From a virus: a stretch of DNA of 41,388 nucleotides. The DNA is taken from positions 1 through 41,388 of the IMG/VR virus record IMGVR_UViG_3300032954_000506. One strand, 5' to 3'. The position numbers and the translations under genes are program-made. The notes under the pieces are model-generated. The model searched no databases, had not been told where the DNA came from, and worked only from the letters and a program-made list of their open reading frames with translations. Shown one piece after another: positions 3,328 through 34,200 of this stretch; position 1 is the stretch's first letter; every line of letters begins with the position of its first letter.

Positions 3328-4049
3328 GGCTTCCGCACCTTCGCGACCACCTGCTTCTTCCGGCGCTCGCGCTGACGCGGCGCATAGACCGTGCGCCAGC
3401 GCTCGCGGTTCTGCTCGTAGTACCGGCGCTTCTCCGCGGCGATGCGGTCCTTGTTGGCCTCGCGGTACCGGCGCTGCTCCGCGGCGATGCGGTCCTTGTT
3501 GGCCTCGCGGTACCGGCGCTGCTCCGCGGCGATGCGGTCCTTGTTGGCCTCGTAGTACCGGCGCTGCTCCGCGGCGATGCGGTCCTTGTTGGCCTCGCGG
3601 TACCGGCGCTGCTCCGCGGCGATGCGGTCCTTGTTGGCCTCGCGGTACCGGCGCTTCTCCGCGGCGATGCGGTCCTTGTTGGCCTCGCGGTACCGGCGCT
3701 GCTCCGCGGCGATGCGGTCCTTGTTGGCCTCGTAGTACCGGCGCTTCTCCGCGGCGATGCGGTCCTTGTTGGCCTTCTCGACCTGCACGGCGATGGCCTT
3801 TCGATCGACGGGCAGCGACCCCAGGCGCGGGAGGTCTGGTCGAAGGTATCGGCCGAGGACGAGTTGGAGGGCGCCACGGCGCACGAGCGCCTGAAGCTGG
3901 ATATCGAGAATGGAGGGTTCCTGACCGCGGAGCGCGTTGCGAAGATCCCGTGCGGCAATGCCGCCTGGCGGAACCGCTCCGAGAATGAGCTTGGCGAGCT
4001 CGCCGCCGCCACCCACAACCCGGCGAACATCCTTGGCGACGGCGCTCAC
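3324..4049 (-). CDS. Winged-helix-like protein with eight 15-residue helical repeats
   Basis: 241 residues from GTG 4049 (GTGA overlap). Residues about 12-75 look like a helix-turn-helix/winged-helix domain (ELAKLILGAVPPGGIAARDL, LDIQLQALVRRGALQLVLGR). Residues about 93-212 are eight tandem copies of ANKDRIAAE(Q/K)RRY(R/Y)E, followed by a basic tail (RERWRTVYAPRQRERRKKQ). Each repeat is amphipathic and highly charged, and together they should form a long rigid helix. Proteins with similar YxEANKxRI repeats occur sporadically in phages and bacteria, sometimes with HNH nucleases, but no nuclease motif is present here. Inference: a DNA-binding head on a charged helical rod. Its stop overlaps the next ATG. 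Confidence 0.65.
   Translation of the reverse strand: MSAVAKDVRRVVGGGGELAKLILGAVPPGGIAARDLRNALRGQEPSILDIQLQALVRRGALQLVLGRYLRPDLPRLGSLPVDRKAIAVQVEKANKDRIAAEKRRYYEANKDRIAAEQRRYREANKDRIAAEKRRYREANKDRIAAEQRRYREANKDRIAAEQRRYYEANKDRIAAEQRRYREANKDRIAAEQRRYREANKDRIAAEKRRYYEQNRERWRTVYAPRQRERRKKQVVAKVRKP
3414..3773 (-). repeat. Eight tandem 45-bp coding repeats
   Basis: Exactly 360 bp consist of eight in-frame 45-bp units. They differ only at a Q/K codon (gctgct versus gcttct) and an R/Y codon (cgcggtacc versus cgtagtacc). The near-identity at synonymous positions points to recent expansion by slippage or recombination. Copy number is likely to vary between isolates. Confidence 0.9.
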
Positions 4050-4579: not shown

Positions 4580-4893
4580 GCGCGCGCATCCATCTCGACC
4601 TGCAGGGCGGCGATGCGCTCCTGCTGCTCGCGGCAGTGAGCCTGCAGGCGCTCGATCTCCCGAGCGTGGTAGGCAATGTTCCGCCGCCAGGCGTCAAGGT
4701 GGTGGACGAACCTCAGGGACTCGGTATCGCGCTCGCCCTTCAGCAGAATGATCGCCACGCGCGCCCGCTCTAGTGCATCTACCAGGAGCAGGTTCTTCAA
4801 GCCCAGCACGTCCGCGCCGCTGGTCGACTCGCGCCGAAGATCGTTCAGCAGCAGATCCAGCGCCTTGTCGGAGGTGGGCTTCTCCACGCTCAC
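4576..4893 (-). CDS. Unknown coiled-coil early protein
   Basis: 105 residues from GTG 4893 (GTGA overlap). An N-terminal helical part (TSDKALDLLLNDLRRESTSG) is followed by a long predicted coiled coil (about residues 60-104, NIAYHAREIERLQAHCREQQ). No enzymatic motif is seen. It lies between the Mor-like activator and the HTH gene, so all are co-expressed. Function not recognised. Confidence 0.5.
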   Translation of the reverse strand: MSVEKPTSDKALDLLLNDLRRESTSGADVLGLKNLLLVDALERARVAIILLKGERDTESLRFVHHLDAWRRNIAYHAREIERLQAHCREQQERIAALQVEMDARA

Positions 4894-5246
4894 GTGGCGT
4901 CCTCCTCAATGAACGAGATCTGCCGCAGGTGCGCGCCGCGCAGCTCCTTGCGCTGGCGGAGCTTGCGCACGGCCACCTCGGTCATGTTGTACCGCTTGGC
5001 GATCTCGTGGGGCGAGGCGCCCTCGGCGATCTCCTGCAGGATGCGGATATCGCGCTTGGCGATCCGATAGAAGAAATCAGTGGGGATCGTGATGATCTGG
5101 CCACCCCAATCCTGGGCAACCTCATCGGCCGCGGCCGCGCCGATCTGCTCGGCGATATCGGCGGCGACGCCGTGCGCGCGGGCGGCCTCGGCCACGGTGC
5201 GCGCGACGCCGGCGAGCAGCGCATTGCGGCGCGGGGACATCTTCAC
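4890..5246 (-). CDS. mor: Mor-family transcription activator (middle/late gene activator)
   Basis: About 116-118 residues. GTG 5246 has GGAG 8 nt upstream and a GTGA overlap with the preceding stop; ATG 5240 is the alternative. The C-terminal half matches the Mor/C family of Mu: a dimer part ending DWGGQIITIPTDFFYRIAKR, then DIRILQEIAEGASPHEIAKR and the HTH YNMTEVAVRKLRQR. In Mu, Mor and C bind short dyads upstream of middle and late promoters and recruit RNA polymerase. Here the obvious candidate targets are the identical palindromes at 17030-17049 and 25322-25337. Only one such gene is seen, so it may serve both roles. Confidence 0.75.
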   Translation of the reverse strand: MKMSPRRNALLAGVARTVAEAARAHGVAADIAEQIGAAAADEVAQDWGGQIITIPTDFFYRIAKRDIRILQEIAEGASPHEIAKRYNMTEVAVRKLRQRKELRGAHLRQISFIEEDAT

Positions 5247-10632: not shown

Positions 10633-11574
10633 TCACCGGAGCACCGCGCGCATGTCATCGGCGGGCTTCTTCGCCCCGCCCAGCTCCAGCGTGTTCAGCA
10701 GCGCGCCGACCTCGCAGGCGAACACGGAAGCATGGTGATCGAGCGCTTGCTGCCACTCCTGCGGGTCGATCTCGTTCGCGCTCAGGTGCTGCAACAGCGC
10801 GAGCGTGCATTTGGAGAGATGCCGCAGCGGCACCAGGCAGTCCTGTATTGCCTCCATCGCCTCGCTCAGCATTGCCCGCGCCTTCTCGTCGGGCGTCTCG
10901 CGCGGGATGCGCGCCACCTGCTCCTGCAGGCGGTGGATCTGGTCCTTGTTCTGCTGGATGACTTTCTCGCGCGAGTCGTAGTCGGCCACCGCCTTGTCGC
11001 GCTCCTTCTCCAACGCCTTGCGCTGCCGCTCGCCCCGCGCAAGCAAGTCCTCGGCGAGCTCCAGCACCTGGTCCTTCGAGCCCTTGATGGCCAGTTCAGC
11101 CAGCGCTGCCTTGTCGTCCTCGGGCAGCTGGCGGAGCTGACGCAGTTCGCGGTAACCGATGCCGGCATCGGCCAGCGCATCGAAGGTCTGGTCGCCGAAC
11201 GCCCGCAGGTTTTTGATGTCCTCATCGACCTGATCGACCGATCGCTTACCGTTGGTGGCGCACCGGACATAGTCCTCCCAGGTACCGTCGAGAATTTCCG
11301 GATGTCCGGGAAAGGTGGTGCCGCGCAAGTGCTTGTAAATCTTCGATTCTTTAATTCTGGCGAGGCCAGAAATCCGGACAATCCGGGAAAATTCCTCGTT
11401 CGCGTAGGCCATGCGGGCCTGACCGAGCGAGATAAGCAGCTCGCACAACGCCTCATTGCGCTGGGCGGTATCTGCCGCGCCGGCCGCATATGAGAGCTGG
11501 ACCACGTCCAGGTTTTTGCCCGGCGCCGGGGCGGCTGTTGGCGGCACTTTTTTCGGCAGGGGCTTACGCGCCAT
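10633..11574 (-). CDS. Coiled-coil early protein, possible DNA-associated factor
   Basis: 313 residues from ATG 11574; the start overlaps the upstream gene by 11 nt. The N-terminal region is Lys/Pro-rich (ARKPLPKKVPPTAAPAPGK). A helical domain (RIVRISGLARIKESKIYKHL) resembles the start of KfrA/ParB-like HTH proteins. A long coiled coil lies at about residues 195-240 (RQRKALEKERDKAVADYDSR). A further helical C-terminal domain ends CEVGALLNTLELGGAKKP. In the BcepMu-type early regions I recall, a similar protein lies next to the transposase. Function unknown. Confidence 0.6.
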   Translation of the reverse strand: MARKPLPKKVPPTAAPAPGKNLDVVQLSYAAGAADTAQRNEALCELLISLGQARMAYANEEFSRIVRISGLARIKESKIYKHLRGTTFPGHPEILDGTWEDYVRCATNGKRSVDQVDEDIKNLRAFGDQTFDALADAGIGYRELRQLRQLPEDDKAALAELAIKGSKDQVLELAEDLLARGERQRKALEKERDKAVADYDSREKVIQQNKDQIHRLQEQVARIPRETPDEKARAMLSEAMEAIQDCLVPLRHLSKCTLALLQHLSANEIDPQEWQQALDHHASVFACEVGALLNTLELGGAKKPADDMRAVLR

Positions 11575-11965
11575 GAGCAAGCGCTCCCTGCGGCTGGAGG
11601 GCGCGCGCATCCCCCGCGCCTGCCCGCGCGCGTATGGCCACGGCCAGGTGCGGCAGCAGCCGCTCAGCCCACCCTTCAGCGAACATCGCGTCCAGGGCAA
11701 TGTTGCGCGCCGTGATCGAATGCAGGCCGGCGGGCGTCAGTTGCCTGTGCCGCTGCCATGCGTTGATCAGCAGCTGCTGACCGACCTCGCTAAACCCGGC
11801 TGCGATGATGAAATCGAACGAATCGAAGCCACGGCGGGCAAGGGTTCGATGAAAGCTCATCAGGCCGCCGAGCTGCACTGAGCTCAACAGGGCTTTGCGC
11901 ACAACAGCGCGCGCTCTAGCGAGCTCCCTCTGGGTGAATGTCGCGGCACAATCATTACTCGTCAC
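11564..11965 (-). CDS. Unknown early protein
   Basis: 133 residues from GTG 11965 (GTGA overlap). A largely helical soluble product: FTQRELARARAVVRKALLSS, then RRGFDSFDFIIAAGFSEVGQ and LINAWQRHRQLTPAG. A winged-helix-like character (LTPAGLHSITARNIALDAMF) is possible. No family is recognised. It sits between the IclR-type HTH gene and the coiled-coil gene. Confidence 0.5.
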   Translation of the reverse strand: MTSNDCAATFTQRELARARAVVRKALLSSVQLGGLMSFHRTLARRGFDSFDFIIAAGFSEVGQQLLINAWQRHRQLTPAGLHSITARNIALDAMFAEGWAERLLPHLAVAIRARAGAGDARALQPQGALAHGA

Positions 11966-12273
11966 AACTGAACCCCTGCGGCAATCCGCTGTTGAACCTC
12001 GGTGATGCGCGCCTGGGCGCGCGCGATGTGTTCGGCATGGGCTTGGGCGATCTGCAGCAGCGCAATAGAGGGCGCGTAGCGGCCGTTCTCCAGCTGCGTG
12101 GCGAAGCCCTCATCGACCAGGACCTGCAGCATGCGGGAGACGTTGGGCGCGCTCTCGCCAAGGGCCTGCGCGAGCTCGCCATTGCTGACGCCCGTCAGGG
12201 TCGTGCCGCGCATGGCCATCAGCATGCGCAGGGCGCGGCGGGCGGGCATGAGGCTCTGTTTGTCCTCGCTCAT
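11962..12273 (-). CDS. Winged-helix DNA-binding protein (IclR/MarR-type HTH)
   Basis: 103 residues from ATG 12273, overlapping the upstream stop (ATGA). The HTH is clear: TLTGVSNGELAQALGESAPN, then VSRMLQVLVDEGFATQLENG with a wing RYAPS. A C-terminal helical tail (IAQAHAEHIARAQARITEVQ) may dimerise. The form is that of an IclR-type N-terminal domain without the effector domain. As the third early gene it may modulate early transcription, but this is inferred. Confidence 0.65.
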   Translation of the reverse strand: MSEDKQSLMPARRALRMLMAMRGTTLTGVSNGELAQALGESAPNVSRMLQVLVDEGFATQLENGRYAPSIALLQIAQAHAEHIARAQARITEVQQRIAAGVQL

Positions 12274-12854: not shown

Positions 12855-13394
12855 ATGCGCGAGTTTGACGAGCAGCTTTTGCGCCTGAAGTACGCCCTGG
12901 GGCTCTCGGCCGACCAGGACGTGGCGTCTGTGCTCGGGTTCACGAAAACAGCCTTTTCGGAGCGCAAGAAGAGAGGGGTATTCCCGGCCGACAAAGTGCG
13001 CGCGTTGGCTGGCGAGAAGCCCGAGCTGCGACTCGATGTGGACTACGTCCTAACAGGCACTTCAGATGCTCAGAAGGAGTTGAATCGCAGGCTGGCGATA
13101 ATCAAGACTTCGACCGAGAAGGCCCTCAAATTGGCCGTATCCCCTGAGCAGGGTTCACTGCTCCAAGCCATCATTTTTTTTATTGAGATGGAGGATAGGG
13201 ATCGTCTTCAGGATTGCCTAAAGGACATGAAGAACTGGGTGTTTCCGATGCCACCGGATGAGCAGGCGCTACTTGACGACTATCGACGCATCGATGCCGG
13301 TAATCGACCCCAAGTATGTGAGTTGGCCGCCCGATTGGCCGGCGACTCACTTCCCCCAATCCCTAGCCGCCCCCCTCGAATCTCCAAGGAATAG
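12855..13394 (+). CDS. CI-type phage repressor
   Basis: 179 residues from ATG 12855, divergent from the early operon. Residues about 8-65 match the phage CI-repressor HTH domain: LRLKYALGLSADQDVASVLG, FTKTAFSERKKRGVFPADKV, then LRLDVDYVLTG. The middle is helical (ELNRRLAIIKTSTEKALKLA, probable oligomerisation). There is no peptidase S24 domain, so induction probably does not follow RecA-driven self-cleavage. A GC content lower than the structural genes is noticeable. No clear ribosome site is seen, and the operator dyad overlaps where it would be. Confidence 0.8.
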   Translation: MREFDEQLLRLKYALGLSADQDVASVLGFTKTAFSERKKRGVFPADKVRALAGEKPELRLDVDYVLTGTSDAQKELNRRLAIIKTSTEKALKLAVSPEQGSLLQAIIFFIEMEDRDRLQDCLKDMKNWVFPMPPDEQALLDDYRRIDAGNRPQVCELAARLAGDSLPPIPSRPPRISKE

Positions 13395-13398
13395 CGAG

Positions 13399-13824
13399 AT
13401 GAACGGAAAGCTGCTTGCTTCGCTGCTGCTGGTTGCCCCGATAGTTCCCGCGATGGCAGACATAAAGCGCCTTGACTGTATGCCGAGCAATGCCACGGCA
13501 GGGTATGTGGTCCACGCCGTCATTGACGACGCGACGGACAAGGCGGAGGCGCAGGTTTATGGCAACGGCGCCCAATGCGCCTCGAGCAAATCGTGTGAGA
13601 CAGCGGTCTACCAGAAGGACGTGCTGCCCTCTGTGATTCGCCTTACGCGCACCCAGGATTTTGGCCCATTGGCGGGCTTCGTAATTGCAACCGTAGTCGA
13701 TATCGATAGGACGACGCTGTCAGTAACCCTGCGAGTGAGCACTAAATCGTCCGGCGGGAACACCGAGAGCACGTATACAGGAACGTGCAAAATGACCGTG
13801 GACGAATCAAAGAAGCTTCTTTAG
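13399..13824 (+). CDS. Secreted lysogeny-expressed ('moron') protein
   Basis: 141 residues from ATG 13399, 4 bp after the repressor stop with AAGGA in the right place, so it is probably expressed with the repressor in the lysogen. The signal peptide is clear (MNGKLLASLLLVAPIVPAMA, cleavage after AMA). The mature part is beta-rich with five cysteines (for example CASSKSCET), suggesting disulphides in the periplasm. Codon use is less GC-biased than in neighbouring structural genes. Position and export suggest a lysogenic-conversion function such as superinfection exclusion. No family is recognised. Confidence 0.65.
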   Translation: MNGKLLASLLLVAPIVPAMADIKRLDCMPSNATAGYVVHAVIDDATDKAEAQVYGNGAQCASSKSCETAVYQKDVLPSVIRLTRTQDFGPLAGFVIATVVDIDRTTLSVTLRVSTKSSGGNTESTYTGTCKMTVDESKKLL

Positions 13825-14144
13825 GGGACGTCAAGAAACCGCAGCCGCTGCACGGTGTAGATGAAGTCCTGGGACTTCTGGTCCTCGCCGTCGAGCCCAT
13901 AGCTCGCCACCACGGTCACCATGCGCCGCTCCTGGTCGCCAGCGCCCACCATGCGGTTGTCGCTCGATGTGAGCTGCAGGGTCAGTGACGGCGCCGGATC
14001 CAGCGCCGTCCAGGCGCGCAGCTGCTGCCCGCTGTCCACGTCGTCGATTCGATAGGTGATCGAGAGCGGTGCCTGCATCTGGTTCGCGATGTTGCGGAAG
14101 ACCAGATCCAGGAAGGCGCTATCTTTTTCTTTCACGGCGCTCAT
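13821..14144 (-). CDS. Small beta-rich virion appendage protein
   Basis: 107 residues from ATG 14144 (TGAGGG upstream), 8 bp after the stop of the repeat protein gene. MSAVKEKDSAFLDLVFRNIA, then ITYRIDDVDSGQQLRAWTAL and VTVVASYGLDGEDQKSQDFI resembles the small Ig-like proteins found next to fibre genes in siphophages (general recollection). It is the last gene of the inverted appendage module. Its stop overlaps the convergent secreted-protein gene by 4 bp. Confidence 0.5.
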   Translation of the reverse strand: MSAVKEKDSAFLDLVFRNIANQMQAPLSITYRIDDVDSGQQLRAWTALDPAPSLTLQLTSSDNRMVGAGDQERRMVTVVASYGLDGEDQKSQDFIYTVQRLRFLDVP

Positions 14145-14152
14145 GGCGGCCC

Positions 14153-15745
14153 TCAGTGGAGTCGGAAGGAAATGCTGCGCGTGCGCAGCCGCCCAAAGTG
14201 GACTTCGGTGATGGGCAGCGGCGTTCCACCACCAGACAATTCGGCGGTGGCGCTTGCGCGCGCCACCGCATCACCGGAGAGCTGGATGGCCGCATTGACG
14301 GTCAGCGCCGCGCCGCCCACGACCGTGGCGATCGCGCCGCCCGACAGGTGCACCTGCACCTGCAGCTGGCCGGTGGCGAGGCTATCGGCCACGGCCTGTG
14401 CGGTCAGCGGGATCTGCAGGTGCAGCTGGGCGACCGCCGATGCGCCCGCCGCCGCGGCGCCGGCCAGTGCCGCCTGGCCGGTGAATTCCGCCTGGGCCTG
14501 CGCGCCCGCCGCCGCGGCGCCAGTGAGCGGCACGCCGTGCGTCAGGCTCCCGCTGGCGGCGGCGCTACCAATGGCCTGCCCGGACAGGTGCGCGCTGACC
14601 GTGAGCGCGCCGGCGGTCACGGCACCAAGATTCGCGGCGCCGGCGAGCGGCACCTGGTGGATGAGATCGGCCTGCGCCAGCACCGCGGCCACCGCCGCGC
14701 CGCTCAGCAAGACGTTCAGGCGAAGCACCGCCGCGGCCGATGCGCCGGCGACGGCCCCGCCGGCAAGGTTTACCGCGCCATTGGTGCTGAGATCCGCAGC
14801 GCCATTGGCGCCTGCCGCCGCGGCGCCAGCAAGCGGCACCAGGTGAGTGGCCTGCGCGGCCGCAAGCGCCGCGGCGAATGCATCACCGCCCAGGTGAATC
14901 GAAAGCTGCAGTCCTGCGGCGCCTACGGCTGACCCCAGCGCTGCGCCAGTGAGTGGCACGCCGTGCAACAGCGCGCCGCTTCCCAGCGCCGATGCAACAG
15001 CCGCCCCGATGAGCGTCACGCCTTTGCTCAATGCGCCGGTGGCCGCCGCGCTAGCCGCGGCATCACCGGCGAGAGCTTGGGTCCCGCCCGAGGCCATTTT
15101 CACCTCGACCGCCAATGCGCCGGCGTAGGCATACGCGGCGCTGGTGGTCATTGCGGGCGAGGTATCCGCGCTCGTCTTATAGGCCAGCGCGCCCGCGAAT
15201 GTGTACGGGCTCGTCGCCTGCTGGAGGAAGGTCGGATTCCAGCCGGATTCCGGCGTGAGCGGGTTGGACCCGTCAGAGGTTCCGAGCTGCAGCGTCAGAT
15301 TGCCGGGGTTCGAAAAAGCCGCCAGCGCGCACGTCAATGCGTTGGGCGTGACGCCGGCGGTATTGATGGACATTCCATTGGGGGTGCCAAAGCAGTCCGC
15401 CGCGGCCGCCGGCAATCCCACCGTGTCCTCGTCGATCTCGACCACGCCGGCCGCGTGCGACCAGAACGCCGCGTGATGGAACGTCACGGCGCTGGATGCC
15501 GGGGAGCCGGATGTTTTGCAGGCCCAGAACGAGATCTCTCGATCGTCATTGCCGTCGTTGTAGACCAGCGCGCTGCCGATCTGCACCCATGTTCCATGTC
15601 CGGTGACGCTGGTGCAGTGGGCGTATCCCTCGATCCAGCCGAACAACAACTTGTTGGCGCCGGGCGTGAAGGCGGTGATGACCGTCGTACTGGCCTCATT
15701 TTGCGGGGCATCGGTCAGTCCGCGACTTGTGAGCGACCAGGTCAT
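14153..15745 (-). CDS. Fibre-like protein with about 14 twenty-residue repeats
   Basis: 530 residues from ATG 15745. Residues about 1-215 form a beta-rich domain (STTVITAFTPGANKLLFGWI, FHHAAFWSHAAGVVEIDE) like jelly-roll domains of phage fibres. Residues about 220-510 contain around 14 units of the form L-(S/A/T)-G-(A/D/G)-A-x-A-x-A-x-A-x-(A/G)-x-L-x-(L/V)-x-(V/I)-(P/H/L), for example LTGAALGSAVGAAGLQLSIH. The periodic small/hydrophobic pattern suggests a fibrous shaft. The C terminus is unique (ITEVHFGRLRTRSISFRLH). It is transcribed against the late genes. A tail-fibre or decoration role is inferred. Confidence 0.6.
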   Translation of the reverse strand: MTWSLTSRGLTDAPQNEASTTVITAFTPGANKLLFGWIEGYAHCTSVTGHGTWVQIGSALVYNDGNDDREISFWACKTSGSPASSAVTFHHAAFWSHAAGVVEIDEDTVGLPAAAADCFGTPNGMSINTAGVTPNALTCALAAFSNPGNLTLQLGTSDGSNPLTPESGWNPTFLQQATSPYTFAGALAYKTSADTSPAMTTSAAYAYAGALAVEVKMASGGTQALAGDAAASAAATGALSKGVTLIGAAVASALGSGALLHGVPLTGAALGSAVGAAGLQLSIHLGGDAFAAALAAAQATHLVPLAGAAAAGANGAADLSTNGAVNLAGGAVAGASAAAVLRLNVLLSGAAVAAVLAQADLIHQVPLAGAANLGAVTAGALTVSAHLSGQAIGSAAASGSLTHGVPLTGAAAAGAQAQAEFTGQAALAGAAAAGASAVAQLHLQIPLTAQAVADSLATGQLQVQVHLSGGAIATVVGGAALTVNAAIQLSGDAVARASATAELSGGGTPLPITEVHFGRLRTRSISFRLH

Positions 15746-15865
15746 GTAAGTTCGTGGTTCCCCTGGGCGAGGCCAGCGACAGCGGCTCTCGAATCAGCCC
15801 GTCGGCCATGAACGCCGCGCACCGCGCGATGATGGGGCTGCATCACCGCGGGCGCGGATGCGGCG

Positions 15866-16465
15866 CTACTGCAAGGTGACGGTCAATGCCCCCGCGGCAA
15901 AACTCACCGCGTCCCCGCTGTTGATCGTCTTGTTCGTGGTCAGCGGCGCGCAGATGAGCTCGTTGCCGCTGGTCGAGGCATCGGCGAGGAACCAGGAGAC
16001 GACCGTTCCCCAGCCCGCCGTCGGCGTCGGGAAGGTAATGGTGTTGTTATTGGAGATCTGGCCGCCCGTGCCGGTGCTGGCGGTGGTACTGCCAGCGCTT
16101 TGCGTGCCTGCCCAGTTTGCGAGCGAGCTCGTCACCGCAACCCGCGCATACGAGCCACCCGAGACCTCGGTGCCGAATGAGCTGTCGGAGCAGGCCGCGG
16201 TAGAAAGCCCCACATACACGGTGCTCGGCGCGGTGAAGGTCTGCCCGCGGAAGATGAAATCCGCGAGCTTGTTCTCCGCGTAGTCGCTGAACGCCTGCGC
16301 GTTGCCGGTTTGCGGTGCGAGCAGCGCGATGCTGGCGACGGTTGTTGCGGCGATCGGCGCGGCGACCGGCGCGACAGTGGTCACCGTCGTGACGGCCAGG
16401 GAGCTGAGCGCCAGTACTGCCGCGATGGCGGCGGCGCGGGCGCGGGTGATCAGTGTGCGGATCAT
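15866..16465 (-). CDS. Tail-fibre-type domain behind an N-terminal signal/anchor sequence
   Basis: 199 residues from ATG 16465 with GAGGTAA upstream. Residues about 60-199 match a common phage fibre-associated domain: FSDYAENKLADFIFRGQTFT, STVYVGLSTAACSDSSFGTE, VSGGSYARVAV, then ITFPTPTAGWGTVVSWFLAD and an end AAGALTVTLQ. Unusually, residues 1-57 are a basic start (MIRTLITRARAAAIAAVLAL) plus a long Ala/Val/Thr hydrophobic stretch ending TGNAQA. This looks like a signal peptide or membrane anchor, which virion fibre proteins normally lack. The domain assignment is from memory of similar 'YVALHTA' proteins. Confidence 0.6.
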   Translation of the reverse strand: MIRTLITRARAAAIAAVLALSSLAVTTVTTVAPVAAPIAATTVASIALLAPQTGNAQAFSDYAENKLADFIFRGQTFTAPSTVYVGLSTAACSDSSFGTEVSGGSYARVAVTSSLANWAGTQSAGSTTASTGTGGQISNNNTITFPTPTAGWGTVVSWFLADASTSGNELICAPLTTNKTINSGDAVSFAAGALTVTLQ

Positions 16466-16496
16466 GGCGGGTTACCTCGTGGTGGCGGCGGAAGGG

Positions 16497-16946
16497 TTAC
16501 GGGGCGACCTGGTTCAGGTTCACCGTGACGGTGACCTGCAGGCCGGTGGGCGCGTTGGGAACGCTGACGATGAAGGCTTTGGTGGCCTGTGCGGAGAGCG
16601 AGCTGCACACGTCGTTGCACGCGGCGACCCGGAAATAGAGCGTCGAGCCATTCGGCACCACGCCCTGGTACTGGTAGGTCGTCGCAGCCGGCCCGAGCTC
16701 CAGCGTCGGCGTCGCGCCGGCGTCGGGAATGCTGTTCGGACTGATGAACACCTGCACCTTCTTCAGTGCGTTGGTGCCGGCGAGCTGGCCGCCCAGCGTA
16801 TCGGTGGTGGGCAGCGTCCAGCTCATGCTGGCAGTGGCGGTGACCTGTGCGGGATCGGCGGCGTATCCGCGGGACATCCCCACGACGGATATCGCCAACA
16901 GCGCTATGAGCATCGGGATGGACCGTGCGAACAGTGAACGAGACAT
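16497..16946 (-). CDS. Secreted Fn3-like protein
   Basis: 149 residues from ATG 16946 with AGGAG directly upstream. The signal peptide is clear (MSRSLFARSIPMLIALLAIS, ending SRGYAA). One fibronectin-III-like domain follows: VTATASMSWTLPTTDTLGGQ, LKKVQVFISPNS, then STLYFRVAACNDVCSSLSAQ. It is the first gene of the four-gene minus-strand module that faces the repressor. Function unknown; an exported adhesin or an appendage partner is possible. Confidence 0.55.
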   Translation of the reverse strand: MSRSLFARSIPMLIALLAISVVGMSRGYAADPAQVTATASMSWTLPTTDTLGGQLAGTNALKKVQVFISPNSIPDAGATPTLELGPAATTYQYQGVVPNGSTLYFRVAACNDVCSSLSAQATKAFIVSVPNAPTGLQVTVTVNLNQVAP

Positions 16947-17029
16947 GAGAGCTCCTGGTGGGTGACTGAAACGAGGCCCTTGCGGCGCCATCGCGTGCTC
17001 GTCATGCTGATAAGTGCTCCTGCACTTGG

Positions 17030-17049
17030 CATTGGGACATGTCCCAATG
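17030..17049. promoter_or_regulatory. Late control palindrome, copy 1 (before endolysin)
   Basis: A perfect 20-bp palindrome whose 16-bp core TTGGGACATGTCCCAA (17032-17047) recurs exactly at 25322-25337. The shared stretch extends to 19 nt with TGA on the right side. It is 18 nt before the endolysin ATG, at the start of the rightward late genes. In Mu, C-dependent late promoters lie before the lysis and head genes, and the two copies here fit those positions. The likely binder is the Mor-like protein; an RNA hairpin role is the alternative. Confidence 0.65.
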
Positions 17050-17067
17050 ACTCGCGGTGGCGCGTCC

Positions 17068-17580
17068 ATGACGCTGCCGGGCATGTCAGGGATCTACGGG
17101 CTTGACCCGGCTCAGTTCGGCGTTCGCATCATCCGGCCACTGCTGGTGGACATCGGTCTGTGGTCGACCGTGGCCGAGCGCCTGGTGCTCGGCACCGCCA
17201 TGCAGGAATCCCGCCTCACGTACCTGCAGCAGGTGAGCGGCCCGGCCATCGGCATCTATCAGATGGAGCCGGCCACTTACGACGACATCCGCTGCAACTT
17301 CCTGGCGAACCAGCGCGCGCTGCGCCTGCACGTGGATGCCTGGGCCATCGGCGCCGCCAATGCGCGCGAGATGGAGGGCAACCTCTACTTCGCCACCGCC
17401 ATGTGCCGGGTGCTCTATCGTCGCGTGAGCGATCCGCTGCCGCGCGCGGATGACGCCGCCGGGCTCGCCGCCTACTACAAGGCGCACTACAACACGCCGC
17501 TCGGCAAAGCCACGGTCGACCAGGCCCTGCCTCACTTCCAGCGCGCGATCGACGCTTTTTCAACCGGAGGGTTGTCATGA
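17068..17580 (+). CDS. Endolysin, lytic-transglycosylase (SLT) type
   Basis: 170 residues from ATG 17068; 17047 is an in-frame alternative that would overlap the palindrome. The SLT-like motif has the presumed catalytic Glu47 in LGTAMQESRLT, followed by GPAIGIYQMEP, then a helical C-terminal part (YYKAHYNTPLGKATVDQALP). It should cleave the glycan strands of peptidoglycan during host lysis. No signal peptide is seen, so it needs a holin. It is the first late gene, and its stop overlaps the lipoprotein start (ATGA). Confidence 0.75.
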   Translation: MTLPGMSGIYGLDPAQFGVRIIRPLLVDIGLWSTVAERLVLGTAMQESRLTYLQQVSGPAIGIYQMEPATYDDIRCNFLANQRALRLHVDAWAIGAANAREMEGNLYFATAMCRVLYRRVSDPLPRADDAAGLAAYYKAHYNTPLGKATVDQALPHFQRAIDAFSTGGLS

Positions 17581-18010: not shown

Positions 18011-18457
18011 ATGTTCATCGGCGAGCTCGATGTCCGGGCGTATCGTGGGCACGACGATGAGTGGGTCGTGCTCAGCGACATGTGGTGGCGCGATGCCGCG
18101 TTTGCCGTTGCCCTGGGCGCGCCCGAGCTCGCCGAGATCAAGGTTCCGCGCGGGTTCGTCACGGACCTGGCGAGCATTCCCAGGCCACTGCGCGGGTTGC
18201 TTGACGTCAACGGACCCTCGCGCCGCGCCGCGCCGCTGCACGACTACCTGTACTGCTCGCAGCCGTGCCTGCGGGCGCAGGCCGATGCGCTATTCCACTT
18301 CGCCCTGGCCACGGAGGGCGTCGGCCTGATCGACAGGAACATCTACTACGCCGGCGTGCGCGGCGGCGGGTGGTACTACTGGAACAAGCGCCTGCGCGAT
18401 CCTCACCTGCGCGCCGAGGACTTTGTGCCGCCTGGCTACTGGGAGGCAGGCGCGTGA
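18011..18457 (+). CDS. DUF1353 family protein
   Basis: 148 residues from ATG 18011. Family features: IKVPRGFVTDLASIPRPLRG, then RRAAPLHDYLYCSQ and ADALFHFALATEGVGLIDRN with YYAGVRGGGWYYWNK. The conserved F-TD-AS-PR and HDYLY motifs are typical of DUF1353 (small phage and Mu-like proteins of unknown function, often next to lysis genes). Soluble, no signal peptide. Confidence 0.75.
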   Translation: MFIGELDVRAYRGHDDEWVVLSDMWWRDAAFAVALGAPELAEIKVPRGFVTDLASIPRPLRGLLDVNGPSRRAAPLHDYLYCSQPCLRAQADALFHFALATEGVGLIDRNIYYAGVRGGGWYYWNKRLRDPHLRAEDFVPPGYWEAGA

Positions 18458-25321: not shown

Positions 25322-25337
25322 TTGGGACATGTCCCAA
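25322..25337. promoter_or_regulatory. Late control palindrome, copy 2 (before the protease/head genes)
   Basis: Exact second copy of TTGGGACATGTCCCAA, followed by TGA as in copy 1. It lies 38 bp before the probable protease start. A TGGTATGGT extended-10-like sequence stands about 30 bp upstream (25288-25296). Its place before the head operon matches the Mu P-I late promoter. Confidence 0.65.
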
Positions 25338-25374
25338 TGATTTCGGGATGGGTGAGGCCCGAAGATCGCCCGCG

Positions 25375-26496
25375 ATGCAACCCAATGCTCGTATCGCGAT
25401 CCTGCGCACCGGCACCCACACCTCGGTGGATGGCCGCAAGTTCACCTTCTCCCCGGCAATCCTCGGCGAGCTCGCCGAGGGCTACGACGCGAAGGCGAGC
25501 GAGGCGCCCCTGGTGGTCGGTCACCCGAGCCTCGATGCACCGGCCTATGGCTGGGTCAACAACCTGCGCGTGGATGGCGACCTGCTGTATGCCGAGCCGC
25601 GCCAGGTCGAGCCGCAGTTCGCCGAGCTCGTCAACGCTGGCCGCTACAAGAACGTCAGCGCCTCAATCTATCTGCCCGACAGCCCGGGCAATCCGAAACC
25701 CGGCAAGCACTACCTGAAGCACGTCGGGTTCCTGGGCGGCGCTGCCCCAGCGGTAAAAGGGTTGCCGCAGGTGCAATTCGCGGAAGGCAGCGGCGCGGTC
25801 GAATTCGCCGCGCCGCTGGGTTACGTCGGCGGGATCCTGGGCGATCTCTTCCAGCGCATCCGCGACTACTTCGTCGAGCGTGACGGCGCGGACAACGCCG
25901 ACAAGATCATCCCGCAGTGGCAGATCAGCTCGCTGCGGGACATCGGCTCCACCGACGCCGATGGTCTGGCCACTTCATTCGCCGCGCCGAGCGGCACCGA
26001 TCCGGAGAGCACCATGCCCAAGCCCGCCACCACCGATCCCCAGCTCGAAGAGCAGCTCAATGCGCGCGCGACCGAGCTGGAAACCCGCGAGCAGGCGCTG
26101 CGGACCCGCGAGCTGCAGGCGCTGCGCTCCGATGCGGCCGCCTTCGCCGAGCAGCTGGTGACCGAGGGCAAGCTCTTGCCACGCCAGAAGGACCAGGTGG
26201 TGGAGATCCTGGTCTCGCTGCCCGCGAACGTGGCGATCTCCTTCGCCGAAGGCGGCAGCACCGTCAGCAAGCCCACGGGCGAGGTGCTGCGCCAGATCCT
26301 CACCGACATGCCGGTGCGCGTGGACTACCGCGAGAAGTCCGGTCAGCCGGGCGTGACCGATCCGGTCAGCTTCGCGGCGCCCTCGGGGTTTACGGTCGAT
26401 GCGGGCCGGCTGGAACTGCACAACAAGGCGCTGGCGCATATGGCCCAGCACCCCAACACCGCCTACCTGGACGCCGTGAAGGCTGTCGGCGGCTGA
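25375..26496 (+). CDS. Mu gpI-like capsid protease with C-terminal scaffold
   Basis: 373 residues from ATG 25375; ATG 25348 is an alternative 9 codons upstream, without a ribosome site. The protease domain has the Mu-protease pattern: NARIAILRTGTHTSVDGRKF, EAPLVVGHPSLDAPAYGWV, YKNVSASIYLP, KHYLKHVGFLGGAAPAVKGL. Residues about 214-373 are the helical scaffold that also exists as a separate product from 26014. The protease matures the prohead and digests the scaffold. Confidence 0.85.
   Translation: MQPNARIAILRTGTHTSVDGRKFTFSPAILGELAEGYDAKASEAPLVVGHPSLDAPAYGWVNNLRVDGDLLYAEPRQVEPQFAELVNAGRYKNVSASIYLPDSPGNPKPGKHYLKHVGFLGGAAPAVKGLPQVQFAEGSGAVEFAAPLGYVGGILGDLFQRIRDYFVERDGADNADKIIPQWQISSLRDIGSTDADGLATSFAAPSGTDPESTMPKPATTDPQLEEQLNARATELETREQALRTRELQALRSDAAAFAEQLVTEGKLLPRQKDQVVEILVSLPANVAISFAEGGSTVSKPTGEVLRQILTDMPVRVDYREKSGQPGVTDPVSFAAPSGFTVDAGRLELHNKALAHMAQHPNTAYLDAVKAVGG
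26014..26496 (+). CDS. Nested in-frame scaffold protein (Mu gpZ-like)
   Basis: 160 residues from ATG 26014, in the same frame as the protease and sharing its stop. A strong GGAGAG ribosome site lies 6-7 nt before the ATG. The product is a coiled coil (LEEQLNARATELETREQALR) followed by helical scaffold (FAEQLVTEGKLLPRQKDQ). In Mu the Z scaffold is likewise nested in gene I. The internal ribosome site makes this very likely. Confidence 0.75.
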   Translation: MPKPATTDPQLEEQLNARATELETREQALRTRELQALRSDAAAFAEQLVTEGKLLPRQKDQVVEILVSLPANVAISFAEGGSTVSKPTGEVLRQILTDMPVRVDYREKSGQPGVTDPVSFAAPSGFTVDAGRLELHNKALAHMAQHPNTAYLDAVKAVGG

Positions 26497-31204: not shown

Positions 31205-34200
31205 CGGCGCGCGGCACGGGTAGTCTGGATCTGGCGATGCGGGTGCTGCTGGACGTGCAGGACGTCCCGCGGCAGGTCCAGCAGCTCGGCGAGGACTTCA
31301 AGGGCCTGAAGGACAATGCCGCGGCCGCGGGCGAGAGTCTTGCCAAGGCCGCCCAGGGCGGTGATGCGCTGGCGCAGTCCTTCGCGTCCTTTACTTCCGC
31401 GCAGCGCGAGCTGGATGGCCTGCGCGACCGCGTGGATCGCGGCGTCGCCTCGCTGAAGGACCTGGCCGACGTCGAGCTGCAGATTGACCAGGCGATGCGC
31501 AAGGGCACGCTGGCCGAGGCCGAACAGGTGGAGATGCTTGCGCAGCTGGATGCCCAGGAGAAAAAGCTCCTGGCCACGCACCAGCGCGATGAGCAGGCCC
31601 TGCAGCAGCTGGTCCGTGCCTACGATCCGACCAGCGCGGCGCTGAAGAAGCTCGCGGCCGATGAGGCGCGCCTCACCGCGGCGCGCGATGCCGGGCGCAT
31701 CAGCCAGGACCAGTACACGCGGGCGATGGGCGCGCTGTCCTCTCAGCGGGCGGAGTGGGAGGAGGCGCGCACGACGCTGTTCAATCTCGGCCAGACCTCG
31801 GCCCTGACCGCGCGTTCGCTCGCGGCCGTCACCAGCAACCTTGCGCGCGGAGACATCAGCGGCGCGGGCAGTTCGCTGCTCACGATCTCCGGCCGCGAGA
31901 TCGTGAACCTCGGTCTGCTGGGCGGCGCGGCGGCCACCGCCGCGGCCGCAGTCGCCGTGCTGGTGGCGGGCGTCATCAAGGGCCAGCGCGAGTTCGAGGA
32001 GATCGACCGGCTGCTGGAGGCGACCGGCCATGCCGCGGGGCTGTCGGCCGAGGACTTCACGGCGGCCGGCCGCGCGATCGATGCGACCACCGGCACCGTG
32101 GGCAAGGGGCGCGACGCACTGCTGCAGCTCGTCCAGACCGGCGAGAAAGGCGGCCAGGCAATGGTCGATCTGGGCAAGGCGGCGGTGGCCATGTCCGAGC
32201 TCACCGGCCGCAGCGCTGCCGATGTGGCTCGCGATCTGACCGAGGTGCTGAAGAACCCGACCAAGGCCGCGGCCGATCTCAACGCGCAATACCATTTCCT
32301 CACGGCCGCGGAATACGAGCGCATCGCCGCGCTGCAAGCCGAGGGGCGCGAGCAGGAGGCGGCCGCCCTACTGGCTAACCGGCTCGCCGACGTGCAGGTG
32401 CAGCGGCTCGATGACGTGCGGGAGCGCGCGGGCTGGACTGCGAAGGCATGGAAGGACATCAAGGACGCGGTGAGCGGCGCATGGGAGGAGATCAAGAACC
32501 TCGATGGCCACGATGCCGGCAAGCAACTCGAGGTTGTCACCGCCGCCATCGCAAAGCTGCGGGACTCGCTGGCGCACCCGGAGCAGCCGCTGCTCGTGCA
32601 TAGCGACCTGTTTGGCTTCGTTCCGGCTTCGGCGGAAGACAAACAGCAAAGGCAGCAGCAGGCCCTGAACGACCTGCTCAAGCAGCAGGCGGTGCTACAG
32701 GCGAAGGTCGATGCGGACCATGCCGCCGCGACTACGGAGTCCGAGAAGGACGCCGAGGAGCAGGCGCGCATCGAGGCCGAGTCGTGGCTCAACGAAGACG
32801 CTGCCCATGATCGCGCGATCGCCAAGGCGCGGGCCCTGCGAGACCTGGAACTGGAGATCGCCAAGATCCGCAAGGGCGGCGGTGACTCGCTCAATACACC
32901 CGAGGGTCCTGTTTCGCTCGATGACTACGAGCGGCGCCGCAAGGCCGAGATCGACAAGAAGTACGCGGATCCGGTCCAGGCCAAAACCGACAATGCCTTT
33001 GACCAGAAGAAGGTCGAACTAACGCAGGCCCTCGCGAAGGCGCAGCAGGATCTGGCCAATGCACAGTCGGGCGAGGCTACCTCGACCGACCAGGCGACCA
33101 CCGCCCTTAATGCCTGGCTCGAGGCGAACAAGAACGCGAAGGGTCTGACCGATGCACGCATCGCGCAGTTGCGCGACCTTGCGGCCGCGACCGACAAAGC
33201 CAATGCCGAGAAGCAGGGCATCGCCGATGCAAAGCAGCTGCAGGACCTGCAAGCGCAGCTGCTGCGCGCCCAGGGCAATGATGAGGGCGCGCTACAGGCC
33301 GAGTTCGAGCATAAGTATGGTGACTTCCTGAAGCGCTTGCAGGGTGCTGCGAAGGTGACAGGTGAGCAGCTCGTGCAGCAGCTCTTCTCGGTTGAGGAGG
33401 CCAGCACCACGCTGAATAAGGTGCAACGCACCTACCAGCAGTTCACCGACCAGCTCACCAGTGCCGAGCAGCGCCTGCAGATCGAGCGCGACGCGGACCT
33501 GATCACGCCGCTGGAGTTCCAGCGCAAGATGCTCGCGCTGCGCCAGCAGGAGATCGACCAGCTGCAGGTGTTGGTCCCGCAGCTCGAAGCCGCGGCGCGC
33601 GCCCTGGGCGACAGCCCCGAGGGCCAGAAGGCTCTCGCCAATGTCGATGAGCTGAAGAACCACCTGCTTTCCCTGCAGCACCAAGCGAGCGAGCTGCAGA
33701 TCGCGCTGCGCGATGCGTTCGAGGGCGGCGCCGCGCAGGGCCTCGATGCGCTCCTGACCGGCACCGAATCCCTGCGCGGCGCGGTGGTGGGGTTCCTGAA
33801 GGACATGGCGCAAGCGATGGCGCACTACGTCGACCAGCTCATCGCCGCGATCGCCTACCAGAAGCTGCTCGCGGCCTCGAAAATCATCGAGTCCGCGCTC
33901 GGCCTGGGCGGCGGCGGGCCTGGTGCCGCCACCGATGGCGGCGGTCTGGTCGGCGCTGGCGGAGTGTTCGCGGCAGGTGGCTGGACCGGCCCGGGTGGCC
34001 GAGACGAGCCCGCCGGAACCGTGCACCGCGATGAATACGTGCAGCCCAAGTACCGCATGCAGGAGCCTGGCGCCCTCGCGTTCATGGAAGCCTTCCGGGC
34101 CCACGGCATGGCGGCGATCGACGACTGGCGCGGCTACGCCGGCGGCGGCCTGGTAGGCGGCCCGGAGATTCGCTCCGCCGCGGACCTGCTGCCCGGCGGC

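Follow-up and report, generated by a model that had tools for sequence, protein, structure and literature searches.

We propose, with a probability of roughly 0.87 as judged from sequence, that two identical 16-bp palindromes in the window (the whole 41,388-base virus record analysed here) are operators at which a phage-encoded Mor-family activator switches on both late units, with transcription starting near the start codon. The sites themselves are very probably activator operators of Mor-dependent late promoters; binding, activation, the transcription start sites and leaderless translation are the parts that we infer. In the proposed mechanism, a Mor dimer would bind each 16-bp site with its centre about 43–45 bp upstream of the transcription start, and bound Mor would substitute for the missing -35 contact and draw the host RNA polymerase to the -10 element, which is weak. 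Late in the lytic cycle, activation would induce two units, lysis-terminase-portal (from 17083) and protease-head-tail (from 25375), and transcription would begin at, or at most about 2 nt from, the start codon to give leaderless mRNAs.

Phage context and the Mor-family activator

The window, a virus contig from IMG/VR, has a B3-type Mu-like layout, in which a leftward early region (transposase, GemA and a Mor-family activator) is followed by rightward late genes. The Mor-family transcription activator, the putative binder of the palindromes, is encoded on the minus strand at 4890–5240 (PF08765, E 3.9e-18; 65.8 bits against a cut-off of 24.9). Its gene lies at the left end of the leftward operon, the position held by B3 ORF1 and by the Mor gene of Bhz63, and a PDB sequence search with the protein returned no relative. 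It is the single PF08765 match in a record that may be incomplete, and to that extent the two Mor/C paralogues of a Mu-type Mor-then-C cascade are absent. Protein relatives of the head maturation protease occur in Luteimonas, Stenotrophomonas and Rhodanobacteraceae and in the phages Bhz63, phiSHP3 and B3, which suggests a host in the same order as these bacteria.

A leftward cluster of accessory genes is inserted between the early and late regions (13821–16946, minus strand). It encodes an Ala-rich repeat protein (14153–15745) and two proteins with apparent signal peptides; the product of 16500–16946 lacks a Pfam match. To the left of the Mor gene, positions 3354–3848 hold at least eight tandem 45-bp units within open frames, perhaps host DNA.

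Sequence and uniqueness of the palindromes

The perfect palindrome TTGGGACATGTCCCAA is present as exact copies at 17032–17047 and 25322–25337, each followed directly by TGA, which confirms the coordinates given in a preliminary description of this DNA; the symmetry of copy 1 is perfect over 20 nt (CATTGGGACATGTCCCAATG, 17030–17049). That description had seen no third copy, and none was found on either strand of the whole record at up to three mismatches; in a search for a more degenerate site, the sole extra match of at least 11/16 was at 33798, within the tape-measure coding region. Chance recurrence, which had been judged very unlikely, is indeed so: 0.06 matches to TTGGGACATGTCCCAA are expected in the shuffled record, none of 100 shuffles contained two, and the rough odds that any perfect 16-bp palindrome recurs exactly in 41 kb are ~3e-6 by our own arithmetic (N^2/2 x 4^-8 x 4^-16). 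The TGA that follows the palindromes (17048–17052 and 25338–25342) is seen again, as TGACC, in the near relatives L119, L012 and Bhz63, and because of this recurrence the operator may reach 3–5 bp further downstream.

Probable gene starts and candidate promoter elements

The first late gene encodes an endolysin-like protein (17083–17580, plus strand; no Pfam match), and the first gene of the head unit encodes a Mu gpI-like head maturation protease (25375–26496, plus strand; Pfam Mu-like_Pro at E 5e-4, below threshold). The in-frame ATGs nearest to the palindromes are at 17047 and 25348. Most of the best-matching relatives of the lysis gene align from residue 1–7 of the ATG 17083 start, and relatives of the protease align from ATG 25375; these alignments, together with the promoter model, favour both positions and point to ATG 17083 and ATG 25375 as the true starts.

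If +1 is the A of ATG 17083, operator copy 1 spans -51 to -36 with its centre at -43.5. For the identical copy 2, the centre is 45.5 bp from ATG 25375, a distance 2 bp greater than that of copy 1, so that the palindrome centres lie ~43 and ~45 bp upstream of the two starts. At both sites the palindrome occupies the -35 region. Candidate -10 hexamers are GACGCT (17070–17075, plus strand), which ends 7 nt before ATG 17083, and GAAGAT (25361–25366, plus strand), which ends 8 nt before ATG 25375. The preliminary description had noted no good -10 after the palindrome; this stands insofar as each hexamer is singly a poor match to TATAAT, yet both lie at a spacing that is conserved in relatives and both fit the pattern xAnnnT seen there.

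Copy 1 lies between divergent genes (16946–17047, minus strand), and a leftward CAGCAT mirrors the spacing of GACGCT from the palindrome. Because of this equal spacing, copy 1 might also serve the leftward accessory gene that starts at 16946, which has a signal peptide and the Shine-Dalgarno sequence AGGAG.

The same layout in related phages

Upstream regions were compared at 80 viral and 80 bacterial-genome loci that encode relatives of the protease. As start codon we took whichever ATG or GTG lay closest to the protein match, either at it or upstream; removal of similar upstreams left 111, and a palindrome was required to have at least 6/8 pairs. Palindromes were centred 42–46 bp from the protease start in 36 of these 111 distinct upstreams, compared with 4.3% at other positions (binomial p ~4e-22 for the clustering); about two-thirds of the relatives have no clear palindrome there at this threshold. 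The operator sequences vary widely (GCGGAAACGTTTCCGC, ACTAAAGCGTTTTACT, AATGAAGCGCTTCATT, TTTCGCCCAGGCGAAA and others), the distance from palindrome to start being kept while the sequence changes freely.

In 86% of the 36 operator-bearing upstreams, the last base of an xAnnnT hexamer lies 6 or 7 nt ahead of the start codon, compared with 0–8% for every other spacing. The middle bases of this hexamer played no part in the selection, and they favour C/T, A and A, as in TATAAT. Shine-Dalgarno motifs are found in 8% of the same upstreams. Given this spacing of the -10-like hexamer and the scarcity of Shine-Dalgarno motifs, the operator-bearing protease mRNA is probably leaderless, with +1 at the start codon.

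These two observations also weigh against a different outcome of the same activator model, in which the palindromes are activator sites as proposed and transcripts start further up- or downstream and are not leaderless. Leaders do occur in the family: the L014/L146 group has a normal leader with a Shine-Dalgarno motif at the protease gene, the lysis unit of Bhz63 has a clear leader, and the leader of Mu gene I includes a Shine-Dalgarno sequence. The -10 elements of the window are moreover weak, and we regard a non-leaderless start as unlikely but deserving of serious consideration.

Reuse of the proposed operators and covariation with Mor

One site before both the lysis and the head unit of a single phage is seen in relatives as well as in the window. 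Of 24 phages, nine carry a second copy of their own operator (at least 13/14), compared with 1.5% when operators were swapped between phages; this swapped-operator test replaced a looser 12/14 symmetrised-consensus statistic that was noisy in GC-rich loci. Phages in which a second or third late unit is likewise preceded by the phage's own, different operator include L119, a Luteimonas prophage with copies 7.5 kb apart, L134, with three copies, and L125, L137, L156, L158, L061 and L062. Phage B3 has its operator (TTTCG...CGAAA) at 11567, 19836 and 26819, preceding the holin, protease and tape-measure genes, and Stenotrophomonas phage Bhz63 has two copies, at 11068 and 19126.

Among 30 phages for which an operator and a Mor protein were both available, operator distance correlates with the distance between Mor helix-turn-helix regions (r 0.45). 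The correlation persists when protease distance is controlled for (partial Mantel r 0.37, permutation p 2e-4), although covariation is partly expected from shared ancestry, which the partial Mantel test removes incompletely. Because such tests can be too generous, we treat the covariation as supporting evidence only. This set includes seven phages, added by hand, that have only 5/8 pairs, and L020, L146, L181 and L184 were left out since their best palindrome is a GC run or the Mor fit is doubtful; in bacterial genomes, Mor and operator were matched up by contig coordinates. Inspection by eye pairs TAAA-type half-sites with S/T-x-M/V-R helices and TGAA-type half-sites with T-x-R-Q/H. The operators of the window's closest Mor relatives are only partly similar to its own (43–50% mismatch).

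The covariation bears on a second reading, in which the palindromes are operators of a repressor that silences the late genes in the lysogen. Perfect palindromes suit repressor dimers, and the record does encode other helix-turn-helix proteins, one CI-like (12855–13394) and one IclR-type (11962–12273). No copy is found, however, near the early promoter region at ~12.7–12.9 kb, the expected place of action of a lysogeny repressor; the palindrome centre agrees with that of a Mor site and lies upstream of the -10 instead of across it; and operator sequence covaries with Mor, the one regulator covered by that comparison. Repressor operators are therefore improbable. Among the mechanisms that the preliminary description had put forward, the activator site is the one supported, by the position of the palindromes, the recurrence of the layout in many relatives and the covariation with Mor.

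Another of those mechanisms was an RNA hairpin; in the form considered here, a structure at the 5' ends of late mRNAs that governs translation or stability, it now appears very improbable. Both palindromes are just before start codons, and an 8-bp hairpin is possible at site 1, but the folding energy there equals that of shuffled sequences (z -0.01) and the best fold of site 2 does not contain the palindrome hairpin. With the -10 at its conserved place, transcription would moreover start downstream of the palindrome, and the relatives preserve a distance rather than a sequence.

An exact search for the motif, as the preliminary description had suggested, did return matches, in six viral contigs with one copy each, but at loci that look unrelated, and megablast against phages gave no match. 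Because the six loci appear unrelated, we consider the sequence of TTGGGACATGTCCCAA itself unconserved and the architecture conserved. These single occurrences speak for a chance repeat or a host nucleoid or uptake motif, a reading that is effectively refuted by the comparative data: relatives show the same layout with other sequences. The window itself has two copies only, both at late-unit starts (chance ~3e-6).

Comparison with Mu and B3

At the Mu promoter Pm, a Mor dimer binds a 16-bp dyad from -51 to -36, centred at -43.5, in which a 6-bp spacer separates two 5-bp inverted repeats; the promoter has a -10 element, and the Mor site takes the place of a -35 element (PMC4390567, PMC4287176). 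The window resembles Pm in its 16-bp dyad and phage-encoded Mor-family activator, and it would also share a -10 element and the lack of a -35 element; with +1 at 17083, copy 1 would occupy precisely the -51 to -36 interval, with copy 2 within 2 bp. It differs in that the operator sequence is distinct and fully palindromic, spacer included, and in that the start codon is at or next to the inferred +1.

C, a relative of Mor, acts at the Mu late promoters Plys, PI, PP and Pmom (PMC4461284). The preliminary description had likened the two sites to Mu P-lys and P-I, and the positions of the lysis and protease/head units bear this out: in Mu, as in the proposed reading of the window, a shared activator site precedes the lysis and head (gene I) units, and the -10 elements are weak. 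Late transcription in Mu uses four promoters and a distinct C protein, and its gene I leader carries a Shine-Dalgarno sequence; whereas in Mu the order is Mor, then C, then the late genes, the window has one Mor-family protein and sites directly at the late units. Phage B3 (NC_006548) shares the genome layout, the single Mor gene at the left end, operators before the lysis and protease genes and a protease operator 43 bp before ATG 19887; its operator, TTTCGGTCCGCCGAAA, is different and is present in three copies rather than two. No characterisation of B3 promoters was found in the literature searched.

The annotated protease starts of B3 (L272; CTG 19857) and KS10 (L273, for which record position 2899 is cited; TTG 18120) look wrong, and ATGs at B3 19887 and KS10 record position 18177 fit the operator and -10 layout.

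Discussion

The kind of mechanism proposed here is known from Mu, and the system in the window is a variant of it, because a single Mor would control the late units directly and the starts are likely leaderless. No description of a leaderless single-activator layout was found in the non-subscription literature searched. We lean, by a narrow preference, towards a broader proposal: in B3-type and many Mu-like phages, one Mor with a fast-evolving, lineage-specific palindromic operator would drive all late units, and the head-unit mRNA would be leaderless, with transcription starting at its start codon. A specificity code would then link the operator to the recognition helix, and the protease start would be misannotated in many of these phages. 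If this is true, the code could be read from operator and helix, and the annotated B3 CTG 19857 and KS10 TTG 18120 starts would be in error.

A rule that uses sequence only (a palindrome, ~43 bp, a start codon, and xAnnnT 6–7 nt before that start) would locate late promoters in Mu-like phages and correct their gene starts. The relatives provide dozens of natural operator/activator pairs from which to learn how Mor-family helices read DNA. Taken together, these results suggest that a leaderless message may carry the main head operon in many Mu-like phages.
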